Below, in pieces: positions 18,300 to 51,288 of a stretch of DNA of 64,000 nt (positions within the stretch are counted from its first letter, which is position 1; each line of letters begins with the position of its first letter). Source of the DNA: Subtercola lobariae (GTDB lineage Bacteria > Actinomycetota > Actinomycetes > Actinomycetales > Microbacteriaceae); contig NZ_BMGP01000005.1 in assembly GCF_014640255.1 (NCBI RefSeq), positions 1 through 64,000 on the forward strand, read 5' to 3'. Made by a program: the position numbers and the translations under genes. The notes beneath the pieces are model-generated. The model was not told the DNA's origin and did not search any database. It saw only the letters and a program-made list of their open reading frames with translations.

Positions 18300-18361
18300 G
18301 TGAGCCCGTTGCGCTGTATTGAGGCCGTTATACCTGCCTCAATACGATGTAACGGGCTCAC
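18300..18361. repeat. 62-bp nested palindrome, copy A
   Basis: Outer arms GTGAGCCCGTT (18300-18310) and AACGGGCTCAC (18351-18361) pair over 11 bp. Inner arms GTATTGAGG (18316-18324) and CCTCAATAC (18337-18345) pair perfectly, separated from the outer arms by unpaired 5-nt internal loops. The same 62-bp layout recurs at 38704-38765 and 50421-50482. This copy sits between the pyk stop and its terminator. Confidence 0.75.
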
Positions 18362-18424: not shown

Positions 18425-18505
18425 TACCGGTGGTGGGACTCGAACCCACACGTCTTGCGACAACGCATTTTGAGTGCGCCGCGTCTACCATTCCGCCACA
18501 CCGGC
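18425..18505 (-). tRNA. tRNA-Leu (anticodon CAA)
   Basis: Read on the minus strand, the acceptor stem is GCCGGUG with CACCGGU (a G-U first pair) and discriminator A. The D-arm is GCG...CGC, the anticodon loop CUCAAAA gives anticodon CAA (reads UUG), a long class II variable arm follows (UGUCGCAAGAC), and the T-arm is GUGGG UUCGAGU CCCAC. The 3' CCA is not encoded. The gene is transcribed leftward into the bidirectional terminator and diverges from pdtaR, with about 38 bp for both promoters. Confidence 0.95.
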
Positions 18506-38345: not shown

Positions 38346-38648
38346 ATGGCACGAATACATTCTGAGGCAGCTCGCATTCTCGGCGAGCGAGTGAAGGCAG
38401 CCCGCCTGCGCATCGGAATCAGCCAAGAAGACCTCGGCGAACTCGCCGACATGCACTTCTCGAACATCGGCAAGATCGAGCGGGGCAATTCGAACCCGAA
38501 TCTTGCGACAATCGTCGCCCTGGCCGGCCCACTCGGTGTCGACCCTGGGGAGTGGCTCGCCGGACTCACCCCCGCGATGCTCCCCGGCCGCACCCATCAG
38601 GTGACGGCGGCCGACCTCATCGCGGCCCGGGCCGAAGGTCGCTCGTAG
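38346..38648 (+). CDS. Small XRE-family transcriptional regulator
   Basis: 100-residue single-domain Cro/C1-type helix-turn-helix protein. HTH at about residues 10-66: LGERVKAARLRIGISQEDLGELADMHFSNIGKIERGNSNPNLATIVALAGPLGV, with the second helix SQEDLGELA and recognition helix HFSNIGKIERG. A short C-terminal tail has no sensor domain. Such short XRE proteins often autoregulate; the hairpin at 38269-38308 or the AT-rich ACTTGCATATTGC at 38322-38334 (with CATATT as possible -10) are candidate operator sites. Its target is unknown. It stands between uvrB and uvrA, but no SOS box was seen. Confidence 0.85.
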   Translation: MARIHSEAARILGERVKAARLRIGISQEDLGELADMHFSNIGKIERGNSNPNLATIVALAGPLGVDPGEWLAGLTPAMLPGRTHQVTAADLIAARAEGRS

Positions 38649-38703
38649 CCGACCTCATCGCGGCCAGCTCGCGCCCCCGGCGTCGTGAGCCATCTGCGCC
38701 GAA

Positions 38704-38765
38704 GTGAGCCAGGTGTGCCGAATTGAGCCAGGTGTGCCGGGCTCAATTCGGCGCAACAGCCTCAC
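38704..38765. repeat. 62-bp nested palindrome, copy C, with tandem half-units
   Basis: Starts GTGAGCC (38704) and ends CAGCCTCAC (38765), the same length as copies A and B. Inner arms GCCGAATTGAGCC (38717-38729) and GGCTCAATTCGGC (38739-38751) pair over 13 bp at the same offset as in the other copies; the outer arms are less complementary here. Upstream, GTGAGCCATCTGCGCCGAA at 38686-38704 is a further imperfect half-unit in tandem, and a third (TTGAGCCAGGTGTGCC) lies within the element. Confidence 0.7.
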
Positions 38766-38885: not shown

Positions 38886-41777
38886 GTGTCGATTACTAAG
38901 GTCAATTCCGCCGGAAAACTCAGCGTTCGGGGTGCCCGCGTGCACAATCTGCGCGACGTCGACCTCGACATTCCGCGCGACTCGCTGGTGGTCTTCACGG
39001 GGCTTTCGGGCTCCGGCAAGTCGAGCCTGGCGTTCGACACGATCTTCGCAGAGGGGCAGCGCAGGTACGTCGAAAGCCTGAGTGCATACGCGCGCCAGTT
39101 TCTCGGTCAGGTCGACCGACCAGACGTCGACTTCATCGAAGGGCTCAGCCCGGCGGTCAGCATCGATCAGAAGTCGACCAACCGCAACCCGCGATCGACC
39201 GTCGGCACCATCACCGAGATCTACGACTACATGCGCCTTCTCTGGGCGCGCATCGGCATTCCGCACTGCCCGGTGTGCGGCGAGCGAATCTCGGCACAGA
39301 CGGTTCAGCAAATAGCCGATCAGCTCATGGAGCTCGAAGCGGGCATCCGGTACCAGGTCGTGAGCCCGGTGATCTCGCAGAAGAAGGGCGAGTTCGTCGA
39401 CCTGTTCAAAGAGCTCGCCGCGGGCGGGTATTCACGGGCGGTTGTCGACGGCGACATCATTCAGCTCAACGAGCCGCCGAAGCTCAAGAAGCAGTTCAAG
39501 CACGACATCTCGGTGGTCGTCGACCGGCTGGTGGCCGGCCCCGACATTCTGAGCCGGCTCACCGACTCGCTCGAGACCGCGCTGCGGCTCACCGACGGCA
39601 TCGTTCAGGTCAACTATGTCGATGCAGACGGGCCGGATGCCTGGCAGACCTTCAGCGAGAAGCTCAGCTGCCCCAATCAGCACCCCATTCAACTCACCGA
39701 GATCGAACCGCGCACCTTCTCGTTCAACGCGCCGTTCGGTGCCTGCCCTGAGTGCTCGGGCCTGGGAACACGTATGTCGGTCGACGCCGACCTGCTGCTC
39801 GGCGACAGCGAGCTGAGCATCAAAGAGGGCGTCATCATTCCCTGGACCACTCAGGGCAAGGGCCTCTACAACTACTACGAGAAACTGCTCGAAGGTCTCG
39901 CGCGAGACCTCAAGTTCGACCTCAGCACACCCTGGAACGAGCTCAGCTCGACCGTTCAAGAAGCCGTGCTACGTGGTGACAACTTCGAGGTTCGCGTGAA
40001 GTGGAAGAACCGCTTCGGCCGCGAGATGAGTTACACCTCGGGGTTCGAGGGCGTGGTTCCTTACATCGAACGCCAATACCTGCAGGCCGAGACCGACAAC
40101 CAACGCGCCCGCTGGTCGGAGTACCTGCGCGAAGTGCCGTGCCCCGTCTGCAACGGCAAACGGCTGAAGCCCGAGGTTCTCGCGGTGCTGGTGAACGGCC
40201 ACAGCATCGCAGACGTGACCGACATCAGCCTCACCGACGCCCAAGACTTCATGGCCGAACTGACGCTCACCGACCGCGAGGCGCACATCGCTGCCCAGGT
40301 GCTGCGTGAGATTCGGCTGCGTCTCGACTTCTTGATTCAGGTGGGGCTCAATTACCTCAACCTGGCGCGAGCCGCTGCTTCACTGAGCGGCGGAGAAGCG
40401 CAGCGAATCCGCCTCGCCACCCAAATCGGGTCAGGGCTCACCGGCGTGCTGTACGTGCTCGATGAACCCAGTATCGGGCTGCACCAGCGCGACAACCGCC
40501 GGCTCATCGAAACCCTGGTCAAGCTCAAGAACCTCGGCAACACGCTCATCGTGGTCGAGCACGACGAAGACACCATTCGCACCGCTGACTGGGTGGTCGA
40601 CATCGGCCCCGGTGCTGGTGTGAACGGCGGCAAGGTGGTGCACTCGGGTTCGTATGAGGGCCTGCTGAACAACCGCGAGAGCCTGACCGGCGACTACCTC
40701 TCGGGCCGCAAGTCGATCGACATTCCCACGAGCCGTCGCCCGCTTGACCCCGATCGCGAAATCACCGTGGTCGGAGCCGAGGCGAACAACCTCAAGAACG
40801 TCACCGTCAGCTTTCCGCTCGGCACGTTCATCGCCGTCACCGGCGTCAGCGGTTCGGGCAAGTCGTCTCTCGTCAACGACATTCTGTACCGCGTGCTCGC
40901 CAACAAGCTCAATGGCGCCCGCAAGATTCCGGGCAAACACAAGCGCGTGACCGGGCTCGAGAACCTCGACAAGGTGGTGCACGTCGACCAGAACCCCATC
41001 GGCCGCACCCCGCGCTCGAATCCGGCGACCTACACGGGCGTCTTCGACCGCATTCGCAATCTCTTCTCTGAGACGCTCGAGGCGAAGGCCCGCGGCTACC
41101 AGCCGGGCCGCTTCAGCTTCAACGTGAAAGGCGGCCGCTGCGAGGCGTGTTCAGGCGACGGCACGATCAAGATCGAGATGAACTTCTTGCCCGACGTGTA
41201 CGTCGCCTGCGAGGTCTGCGGGGGAGCACGGTATAACCGCGACACCCTCTCGGTGCACTACAAAGGCAAGAACATCGCCGAGGTGCTCGACATGCCCATC
41301 GCCGAGGCGGCGGTGTTCTTCGAACCGATTCAGGCTATCCATCGCTTCTTGAACACCCTGGTCGAAGTGGGCCTCGGCTACGTGCGGCTCGGTCAGAGCG
41401 CCACAACGCTCAGCGGCGGCGAGGCGCAGCGCGTCAAACTCGCTACCGAGTTGCAGCGCCGGTCGAACGGTCGCAGTGTGTATGTGCTCGACGAGCCGAC
41501 GACCGGCCTGCACTTCGAGGATGTTCGTAAGCTGCTGCTCGTTCTGAACGGTCTCGTCGATAAGGGCAACACCGTGATCGTGATCGAGCACAACCTCGAC
41601 GTGATCAAGTCGGCCGACTGGCTCATCGACCTCGGGCCCGAAGGTGGTTCTGGCGGCGGTAAAATTCTTGCAACAGGTACTCCAGAACAGCTCGCTAAGG
41701 TGAAGAAGAGCCACACCGGGTACTTCTTGAAAGAGATTCTCGAGGCAGAAGAAGGTACGAGACGCAAGGCGTCATGA
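38886..41777 (+). CDS. uvrA: UvrABC system protein A
   Basis: Damage-recognition ATPase of excision repair with two ABC modules. 963 residues: Walker [10 protein letters not shown] at residues 39-47, zinc cysteines [16 protein letters not shown] and CPECSGLG, first signature [12 protein letters not shown] and Walker [16 protein letters not shown]; second Walker [14 protein letters not shown] near 656, zinc module CEACSGDG...CEVCGGARY, signature [12 protein letters not shown] and [12 protein letters not shown] 38886 is leaderless. It ends 61 nt before uvrC, probably cotranscribed with it. Confidence 0.97.
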
Positions 41778-49986: not shown

Positions 49987-50358
49987 ATGGCATCAGGTGG
50001 CAGTGCAATTCGAGGATCACGCGTCGGCGCGGGGCCTATGGGCGAGCAAGACCGCGGCTACCACGCCGATCGCATCAAGATCTCGTACTGGGATGCCCTT
50101 GGCAACGAGACGGTGCGGTACTTCGCAGCCAACCTGCCCTCTGAAGAGATTCCCGAGACCATCGACTCACCGCAGTCGGGTCTTCCGGCCGGCCGCGACC
50201 AGCTGAACCCGCCCTCGGTCGCGAAGCTCGAGCCGTACAAGACCCACCTCGCCTACGTCAAAGAGCGTCGCACCGAAGAAGAAGCCGCTCAGCTGCTCGA
50301 AGACGCCCTCGCGCAACTCCGCGCACGTCGCGGCACCGCGGTTCCCGCTACAAACTAG
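49987..50358 (+). CDS. rbpA: RNA polymerase-binding protein RbpA
   Basis: Actinobacteria-specific activator that binds RNA polymerase and group 1/2 sigma factors and stabilises open complexes. 123 residues: N-terminal tail with the core-binding RGSRVGAG (~residues 9-16), a central beta domain (DRIKISYWDALGNETVRYFAANL), a basic linker, and the C-terminal sigma-interaction helices VKERRTEEEAAQLLEDALAQLRARRG. The cysteines of the central domain in streptomycete and mycobacterial forms are missing. ATG follows GGGGAATTCC. A strong terminator comes next. Confidence 0.92.
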   Translation: MASGGSAIRGSRVGAGPMGEQDRGYHADRIKISYWDALGNETVRYFAANLPSEEIPETIDSPQSGLPAGRDQLNPPSVAKLEPYKTHLAYVKERRTEEEAAQLLEDALAQLRARRGTAVPATN

Positions 50359-50420: not shown

Positions 50421-50482
50421 GTGAGCCCGTTATGGCGAGTTGAGTCCGGTACACCGGGCTCAACTCGCCGCAACAGGCTCAC
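50421..50482. repeat. 62-bp nested palindrome, copy B
   Basis: Outer arms GTGAGCCCGTT (50421-50431) and AACAGGCTCAC (50472-50482) pair at 10 of 11 places; inner arms GGCGAGTTGAG (50434-50444) and CTCAACTCGCC (50459-50469) pair over 11 bp. It lies between the rbpA terminator and the convergent pgl gene. Same length and arm positions as copies A and C. Confidence 0.75.
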
Positions 50483-50517: not shown

Positions 50518-51288
50518 TCAGTAGGAGGGGGCGATGAGGTTCTCGGGCACTTCGGCGGCCGCCTCGCGGTCGACGAAGAAGACGGTGCGCTTTCGGCCCT
50601 CGGCTCCTGCGACGGGAACCTCGTCGACGCTTGCCCCTGCGAGGGCGAGGCCGAGCGCTGAGGCCTTGTCTGCGCCCGCGAGTACAAGCCAGATGCGGTC
50701 GGCCGACTGGATGACCGGGAGCGTCAGGCTGATGCGTAGCGGCGGCGGCTTGGGGGAGTTGCGCACCGAAACCACGGTCGCGTCTCGTACCGTGATGCCC
50801 TGCATTCCGGGAAAGAGCGACGCGATGTGCCCGTCGGGGCCCACCCCGAGAAACAGAATGTCGAAGCGCGGGTAGAGTGCGGCATCCGGAGCGAAGGCGG
50901 CCAGCTCACGAGCGTAGGCCGCCGCCGCCTCATCGAGATCGGCGATGTCGTCGCTCGACGCCATCGGGTGAATCTTCGCCTCATCGACCGGAATATGGTC
51001 GAGCAACGCCTCGCGCGCCTGCAGTTCATTACGATCAGGGCTGTTCTTCTCGACAAAACGCTCGTCGCCCCACCAGAAGTGGATGCGCTGCCACTCGACG
51101 TTCGTCTGCGCGGGCGAATTGCGAATGGCCACCATCAGGTCGGTATTGACGCTTCCGCCGCTCAGTACCACATGCGCTTCATCGAATTCATCGAGAATGT
51201 CGATGATCTTGGTGATGAACCGAGCGGCGACCGCCCCGGCTAACGATGCTTTGTCGGCATGAACGAGAACGCGACGATCGGTTGTCAT
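50518..51288 (-). CDS. pgl: 6-phosphogluconolactonase
   Basis: Hydrolyses 6-phosphogluconolactone in the oxidative pentose phosphate pathway. 256 residues (DevB/NagB fold) with VVLSGGSVNTDLM phosphate loop, FWWGDERFVEKNSPDRNE and ILFLGVGPDGHIASLFPG including the catalytic His. It is the last gene of the minus-strand operon, 95 nt behind opcA, and a TGGAA lies just before the ATG. Confidence 0.94.
   Translation of the reverse strand: MTTDRRVLVHADKASLAGAVAARFITKIIDILDEFDEAHVVLSGGSVNTDLMVAIRNSPAQTNVEWQRIHFWWGDERFVEKNSPDRNELQAREALLDHIPVDEAKIHPMASSDDIADLDEAAAAYARELAAFAPDAALYPRFDILFLGVGPDGHIASLFPGMQGITVRDATVVSVRNSPKPPPLRISLTLPVIQSADRIWLVLAGADKASALGLALAGASVDEVPVAGAEGRKRTVFFVDREAAAEVPENLIAPSY

Follow-up and report, generated by a model that had tools for sequence, protein, structure and literature searches.

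The DNA analyzed here (the window) comprised the first 64,000 nucleotides of contig NZ_BMGP01000005.1 of Subtercola lobariae, i.e., G000:C5:1-64000, where G000 is the 4.09 Mb source genome and the other G and L numbers denote other genomes and fetched loci. The window carried three copies of a 62-bp palindrome belonging to a family of at least 55 copies in this genome. It was proposed that the palindromes, which also flank the gene of a predicted nuclease, are probably the DNA target of that cognate enzyme, in a partnership resembling that of REPIN and RAYT but formed with an unrelated enzyme. The gene of this nuclease lies outside the window, and its binding and cutting of the palindromes, as well as their copying and mobility, are functions that we infer.

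Neighboring pairs of palindromes in G000 and in G047, a genome of another genus, enclosed homologous genes with products sharing 34% identity over 299 residues. The product was predicted to consist of an AbiEi-like winged-helix head (residues 3-195) fused to a Vsr/I-Bth0305I-like nuclease. Residues E203, D235, E246, D248 and K252 were invariant in set A3, and are candidate counterparts of the EDxHD catalytic residues. Only sub-threshold Pfam matches (AbiEi_1, AbiEi_4 and DUF6606) and no NCBIfam match were obtained for the two partner proteins, and a PDB sequence search with the partner protein returned zero matches. Among 12 members at Pfam E≤0.1, AbiEi_4 was matched in 6, AbiEi_1 in 4, and DUF559 and DUF6606 in 1 each. 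The protein was present in 9 of the 12 genomes of the genus (E≤1e-5), and the source genome contained two nuclease genes. Palindromes recognized by a covariance model of the Subtercola element stood on both sides of the gene at 5 of 21 fetched loci (L086, L087, L088, L089 and L092, from five Subtercola genomes), the left match at L087 being weak (E 0.14). Two of the 21 loci were pieces of one place and three were distant relatives; the other fetched loci had palindromes of other types.

The association was also recorded in other genera of actinobacteria. A profile of the protein matched 42 of 60 sampled genomes of the family (E≤1e-20), and a wider contig scan found 475 relatives, from which 80 loci were kept, including those of Cryobacterium, Arthrobacter, Agreia, Leifsonia, Cellulomonas and Subtercola. 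A palindrome scoring ≥12 within 400 bp was present on both sides of the gene at 39 and on either side at 68 of the 80 loci. The same score was reached in 16 of 391 control intervals at least 1 kb away, in 0 of 80 left flanks after mononucleotide shuffling, and on either side of 15 of 77 other predicted genes. Paired matching palindromes were found at 38 of the 80 nuclease loci vs 0 of the 77 other predicted genes. Palindromes to the left and right of one gene had a median arm identity of 0.81 (38 of 46 at ≥0.6), and palindromes from different loci whose proteins were less than 50% identical had a median of 0.44. Loci with more similar proteins had more similar palindromes (0.55 at 50-60% protein identity, 0.83 above 80%), a rise indicating that palindrome type goes with nuclease type.

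The layout of the palindromes was shared even when their words were different. When 56 dereplicated palindrome types were compared, a few of them probably terminators or low-complexity DNA, the arm matched itself at a shift of 19 with a fraction of 0.56 vs 0.28 for shuffled arms (z=16.8), and the next shifts, 17 and 21, gave z values of 2.7 and 2.0. At least 8 of 17 matches at shift 19 were counted in 39 of 51 even-centered types, vs 8% of shuffles. Counted in bp from the dyad, the repeated word covered ~34-23 and 15-4, with peaks at 30-27 and 11-8, the position of TGAG in Subtercola. Arm pairing across the types peaked 9-19 bp from the dyad, in palindromes that had been chosen for pairing.

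Dispersed and nuclease-flanking palindromes of one genome were compared as well. Both carried GTGAGACAGGTGCG in G002, a TGCGCC word was common to a dispersed copy and a nuclease ~86 kb off in G161, and the dispersed word of G047 agreed with its nuclease-flanking palindrome; the expected match was not shown for G064/G133 and G120. One palindrome type was matched in 10 of 12 genomes of Arthrobacter and relatives (0 for the reversed control), with about a dozen single-arm matches beyond the nuclease loci as judged from coordinates only. It looks as if each nuclease lineage tends to have its own palindrome type, and as if in Subtercola the palindrome was dispersed in the manner of repetitive extragenic palindromes (REPs). 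At L109 (G017), two palindromes of the same type stood on each side of the nuclease gene. Long two-sided palindromes with words of their own were also seen at L270, L272 and L106, which encode distant AbiEi-like relatives with a partial profile match; on account of these loci, the association may extend to the wider protein family.

In the source genome, the pattern GTGAGCC-N40..60-GGCTCAC was found at 21 places, vs 0 for the reversed control, and two of these (C2:496999 and C3:117922) were judged unrelated and dropped. The covariance model was built from 17 copies, which match by construction, and it identified 55 distinct places with E values from 7e-21 (best) to 0.005 (worst); this number is a lower bound, because 150 of 2127 candidates were scored. 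The lengths were 62 bp in 49 copies, 63 bp in three, 61 bp in two and 59 bp in one. A first-pass annotation of the window, which had listed three copies and suggested a covariance search of the genome, was correct in describing a dispersed family of near-fixed length; the copies were not confined to three, their length was near fixed, and covariation of the arms was detected. The flanks of the copies were dissimilar, except for local tandem copies. One tandem triple (L026, G000:C3:43573-43861) lay in a ruv gene region, the genes being named by eye, with starts 111 and 116 bp apart; its outer two copies differed by one base and the middle one was 59 bp long, a local amplification.

As the first-pass annotation had stated for the window, the copies were located in gene ends and gaps: 53 of the 55 were outside the genes predicted by a simple codon model. 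These 53 occupied 27 tandem, 23 convergent, 2 divergent and 1 undetermined gaps. Random positions from the same loci, with the window left out, were genic in 7733, tandem in 710, convergent in 427, divergent in 331 and undetermined in 199 cases. Divergent gaps were thus under-represented among the copies (p=2e-4).

The features of the window are listed below.

18300..18361, no strand assigned: 62-bp palindrome, copy 1; direct words at 18301-18310 and 18320-18329, inverted words at 18332-18341 and 18351-18360.
38685..38703, + strand: additional 19-bp module (GTGAGCCATCTGCGCCGAA), abutting copy 2 exactly one 19-bp period upstream.
38704..38765, no strand assigned: 62-bp palindrome, copy 2; words at 38705-38714, 38724-38733, 38736-38745 and 38755-38764.
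50421..50482, no strand assigned: 62-bp palindrome, copy 3; words at 50422-50431, 50441-50450, 50453-50462 and 50472-50481.

Copy 1 lay between a pyruvate kinase gene (end 18276) and a tRNA on the - strand (18425-18505). Copy 2 lay between a small helix-turn-helix gene (38346-38648, +) and uvrA (38886-41777, +). The gap of copy 3 was convergent, between an rbpA-like gene (49987-50358, +) and a 6-phosphogluconolactonase-like gene (50518-51288, -). The coordinates and the 62-bp length of all three copies, as well as the complementarity of the inner arms within each, were reproduced from the first-pass annotation. Its outer arms GTGAGCC/GGCTCAC held overall, with one outer pair broken in copy 2 (38704-38765), which ends in GCCTCAC. 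Strong terminators had also been placed beside two of the copies; terminator-like hairpins were visible by eye near copies 1 and 3, and a consensus scan gave no terminator in any of the three regions. The palindromes themselves were rejected as intrinsic terminators, since the same scan found none at the three copies. Outer words one period beyond the 62 bp, as in the module at copy 2, occurred on the left side of 1 and on the right side of 0 of the 55 copies, and were therefore not a general feature.

The anatomy was resolved with 44 dereplicated 62-bp copies. TGAG-n-C was near invariant at four places, as part of a 10-bp word TGAGnCnGnT at positions 2-11 and 21-30 and, inverted, at 33-42 and 52-61. 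Each arm thus contained two words 19 bp apart, mirrored in the other arm (start spacing 19/12/19 bp) and joined by a 9-bp linker with the consensus RCGnCGWWT. Pairing between the arms exceeded independence at pairs 15 and 17-19 (p≤0.0025) and weakly at 2 and 20 (p=0.03), all other pairs giving p≥0.05; as in all the covariation counts, the copies share ancestry. With 64 copies including those of other species, the values were p=0.0002 for pairs 6, 15 and 17-20, 0.0014 for pair 10, 0.015 for pair 16 and 0.03 for pair 8. The signal at pairs 6 to 10 falls within the word and may reflect species-specific changes there. The near-dyad pairs 25:38, 27:36, 29:34 and 31:32 paired no better than independence predicts. 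Based on these tests by position, it was concluded that the covariation is real and resides mainly in the linker between the words, and that the remainder is sequence conservation. The covariation noted in the first-pass annotation was therefore true, and its reading as selection on a fold and not on sequence was not right, because the TGAG-nC cores are near invariant and the near-dyad pairs do no better than independence.

Within the genus, 9 of 12 genomes had model matches at E≤1e-5 and three had none. With at most 150 candidates scored per genome, at least 107 matches were counted in G000 (both strands counted), followed by 73, 66, 25, 23, 12, 11, 10 and 2 in the others. A stricter family search (27 candidates scored per genome) matched 9 of 199 genomes at E≤1e-6, of which seven belonged to other genera. 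The same layout occurred with other words, namely ATGAGCCGGTT-like (G047 and G120), GTGCCCGTT (G064 and G133) and TGCGCC (G161). The model matches of G193 and G117 were not counted as members, being single hairpins with no repeated word. An 81-bp palindrome-like copy at L085 (G009:C127:1490-1570) corresponded to 62 bp plus one 19-bp module, comparable to the extra module at copy 2.

Five sites were compared with related genomes. Diverged palindromes were present at the place of 38704 in G005 and G009. At C5:76057, G009 carried a diverged palindrome; G005 and G010 did not. The gap of 50421 had no model match in G005, G010 and G011, and neither had C5:71492 in G010 nor C5:90093 in G005 and G010. 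Therefore, both gains or losses and long persistence occur. No target duplication or insertion boundary was readable at the compared sites, where the intergenic DNA was too diverged. The counterpart of C5:71492 in G005 (L238, G005:C1:1337150-1337800) contained a long palindrome, GGTAGTT... / ...AACTACCGCGC, unmatched by the model and of a seemingly unrelated type by eye, as though a single gap could draw in palindromes of more than one family.

The nuclease gene itself had a recurrent location. In the source genome it had tuf on one side and, on the other, a 226-aa open reading frame (sub-threshold Pfam matches only) followed by topoisomerase IB, and no AbiEii (nucleotidyltransferase) toxin gene stood beside it. 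The gene adjoined tuf, with topoisomerase IB opposite, in 7 of the 12 genus genomes. In G011 and G001, topoisomerase IB was near tuf with no nuclease match, and the tuf locus of G008 had two diverged palindromes (E 1.6e-4 and 0.037) and lacked the nuclease. G009 yielded no tuf locus, and in G007 the locus was interrupted at a contig end. Among 131 compared loci, which include some single genomes fetched twice, tuf lay within about 1 kb of the nuclease gene at 20, representing seven genera and different palindrome words:

tuf-linked loci: L086-L092, L138, L140, L142, L147, L148, L161, L175-L177, L189, L190, L195 and L202.

Such linkage would reflect either an ancient location common to these genera or a hot spot for insertion.

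A mechanism was proposed in which the AbiEi-like head would read words of 10-12 bp, so that two or four protomers would cover one ~60-bp palindrome. The linker stem would pair as a hairpin or cruciform at some step, which would explain why covariation is found mainly in the linker. Once such a site was nicked or cut, repair or template switching would place copies of palindromes in further gaps between genes, for the most part at the 3' ends of genes, where they would be least harmful. The nuclease gene would be passed on mainly in place, like RAYTs, and the palindrome population would drift along with the specificity of its nuclease. More tentatively, and with slightly less than even confidence, we proposed that this is a second, independently evolved class of an enzyme plus a genome-wide palindrome population, in Actinomycetota. 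It would pair a homing-type nuclease bearing an AbiEi-like reader head with a palindrome of ~60 bp, in which four words of ~12 bp each keep to a fixed 19-bp frame. The palindrome would be rewritten per lineage, giving dozens of matched protein-DNA specificity pairs, and would be copied around the genome via a folded (hairpin or cruciform) intermediate. Titles and abstract openings of the open literature, with most subscription papers and preprints outside this scope, gave no account of palindromes flanking AbiEi-like/Vsr-like nuclease genes, and the partnership looks to have been unrecognized so far.

The best surviving alternative, which was considered unlikely, is that the protein is only a repressor or an antitoxin-like regulator. 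The palindromes would then be operators for autoregulation, the dispersed copies a regulon or chromosome-organizing sites, and the nuclease domain would have another job and not move them. AbiEi and Rv2827c are autorepressors that act on their promoters through inverted repeats (PMC7319586), and the finding of diverged palindromes at matching places in other species suggests maintenance in place. However, a palindrome is found downstream of the nuclease gene too, the dispersed copies avoid divergent gaps, the expected home of operators, and a copy number from none to more than 50 within one genus is odd for a regulon.

Palindromes on both sides of the gene, the two palindromes with no nuclease at the G008 tuf locus, and the proximity to tuf in several genera would also suit a mobile nuclease cassette (a defence gene or a selfish homing gene) bounded by palindromes and transferred whole. 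The solitary palindromes would then be scars of deletion or abortive transfer. This was judged improbable, since 55 scars in a genome with two nuclease genes need many past insertions. Matches to mobile elements with one query were also few, i.e., one phage record and seven plasmid records, the latter with proteins named AbiEi family antitoxin, DUF559 and hypothetical.

It is very improbable that the palindromes are selected RNA hairpins acting at mRNA 3' ends as a stability element or protein-bound RNA, the latter being among the suggestions of the first-pass annotation. The location at gene 3' ends and the covariation of the linker stem agree with such a role, but the near-dyad pairs show no covariation and are often mismatched, phasing along DNA would suit both the near-fixed length and the 19-bp period of the words, the palindromes matched no Rfam family at gathering thresholds, and palindromes stand upstream of nuclease genes too. 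An ordinary miniature inverted-repeat transposable element (MITE) of a classical insertion sequence, consistent with dispersal and a patchy copy number within the genus, is the least credible, as the element consists entirely of a single four-word palindrome, the flanks are not conserved, a target duplication could not be defined, and the flanked gene matched no transposase family in Pfam or NCBIfam.

The Subtercola system is like REP/RAYT in its genome-wide habit and is not a member of it. RAYT genes are inherited mainly in place. The likeness to REP/REPIN-RAYT consists of many short intergenic palindromes with a preference for gene ends, one in-place gene flanked by matching palindromes, and a lineage-dependent specificity. 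A REP is described as a 20-50 nt hairpin preceded by GTAG or a similar tetranucleotide (PMC8266576). In contrast, the Subtercola element is 62 bp long, has no GTAG tag, begins with GTGAG, has unconserved flanks and carries double-word arms with a 19-bp period. RAYT is TnpA-REP, a Y1 HuH transposase, whereas the partner here is the predicted fusion of an AbiEi-like head and a Vsr-like nuclease. A RAYT partner was rejected, as Y1_Tnp (PF01797) had no match in the source genome in a search that was positive in 5 of 14 control genomes; of the REP/MITE-like mobile palindrome suggested in the first-pass annotation, the dispersed REP-like family was retained and a RAYT-type partner was not. The earlier reading as a whole was partly supported.

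With the EDxHD (Vsr-like) homing endonucleases, the partner shares the predicted fold of the catalytic domain and, if the palindrome is its target, the ~60-bp target length; in the I-Bth0305I type, a dimer reads a target of nearly 60 bp (PMC3943268). The differences are another DNA-binding part, palindromes on either side of the gene, numerous target-like copies across the genome, and no intron or intein seen. Residues 3-195 of the partner resemble AbiEi/Rv2827c of the AbiE type IV toxin-antitoxin system in predicted fold, and AbiEi-type proteins bind repeated inverted repeats (PMC7319586). Unlike AbiEi, the partner has a C-terminal nuclease fusion, and its own-genome copy has no adjacent AbiEii toxin gene.

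Through the link to cognate palindromes, a family of common and vaguely named proteins would gain a testable function. The many matched pairs would allow the word-reading code of a long-target nuclease to be worked out. If the proposal is true, genome colonization of the REP type arose with more than one enzyme.
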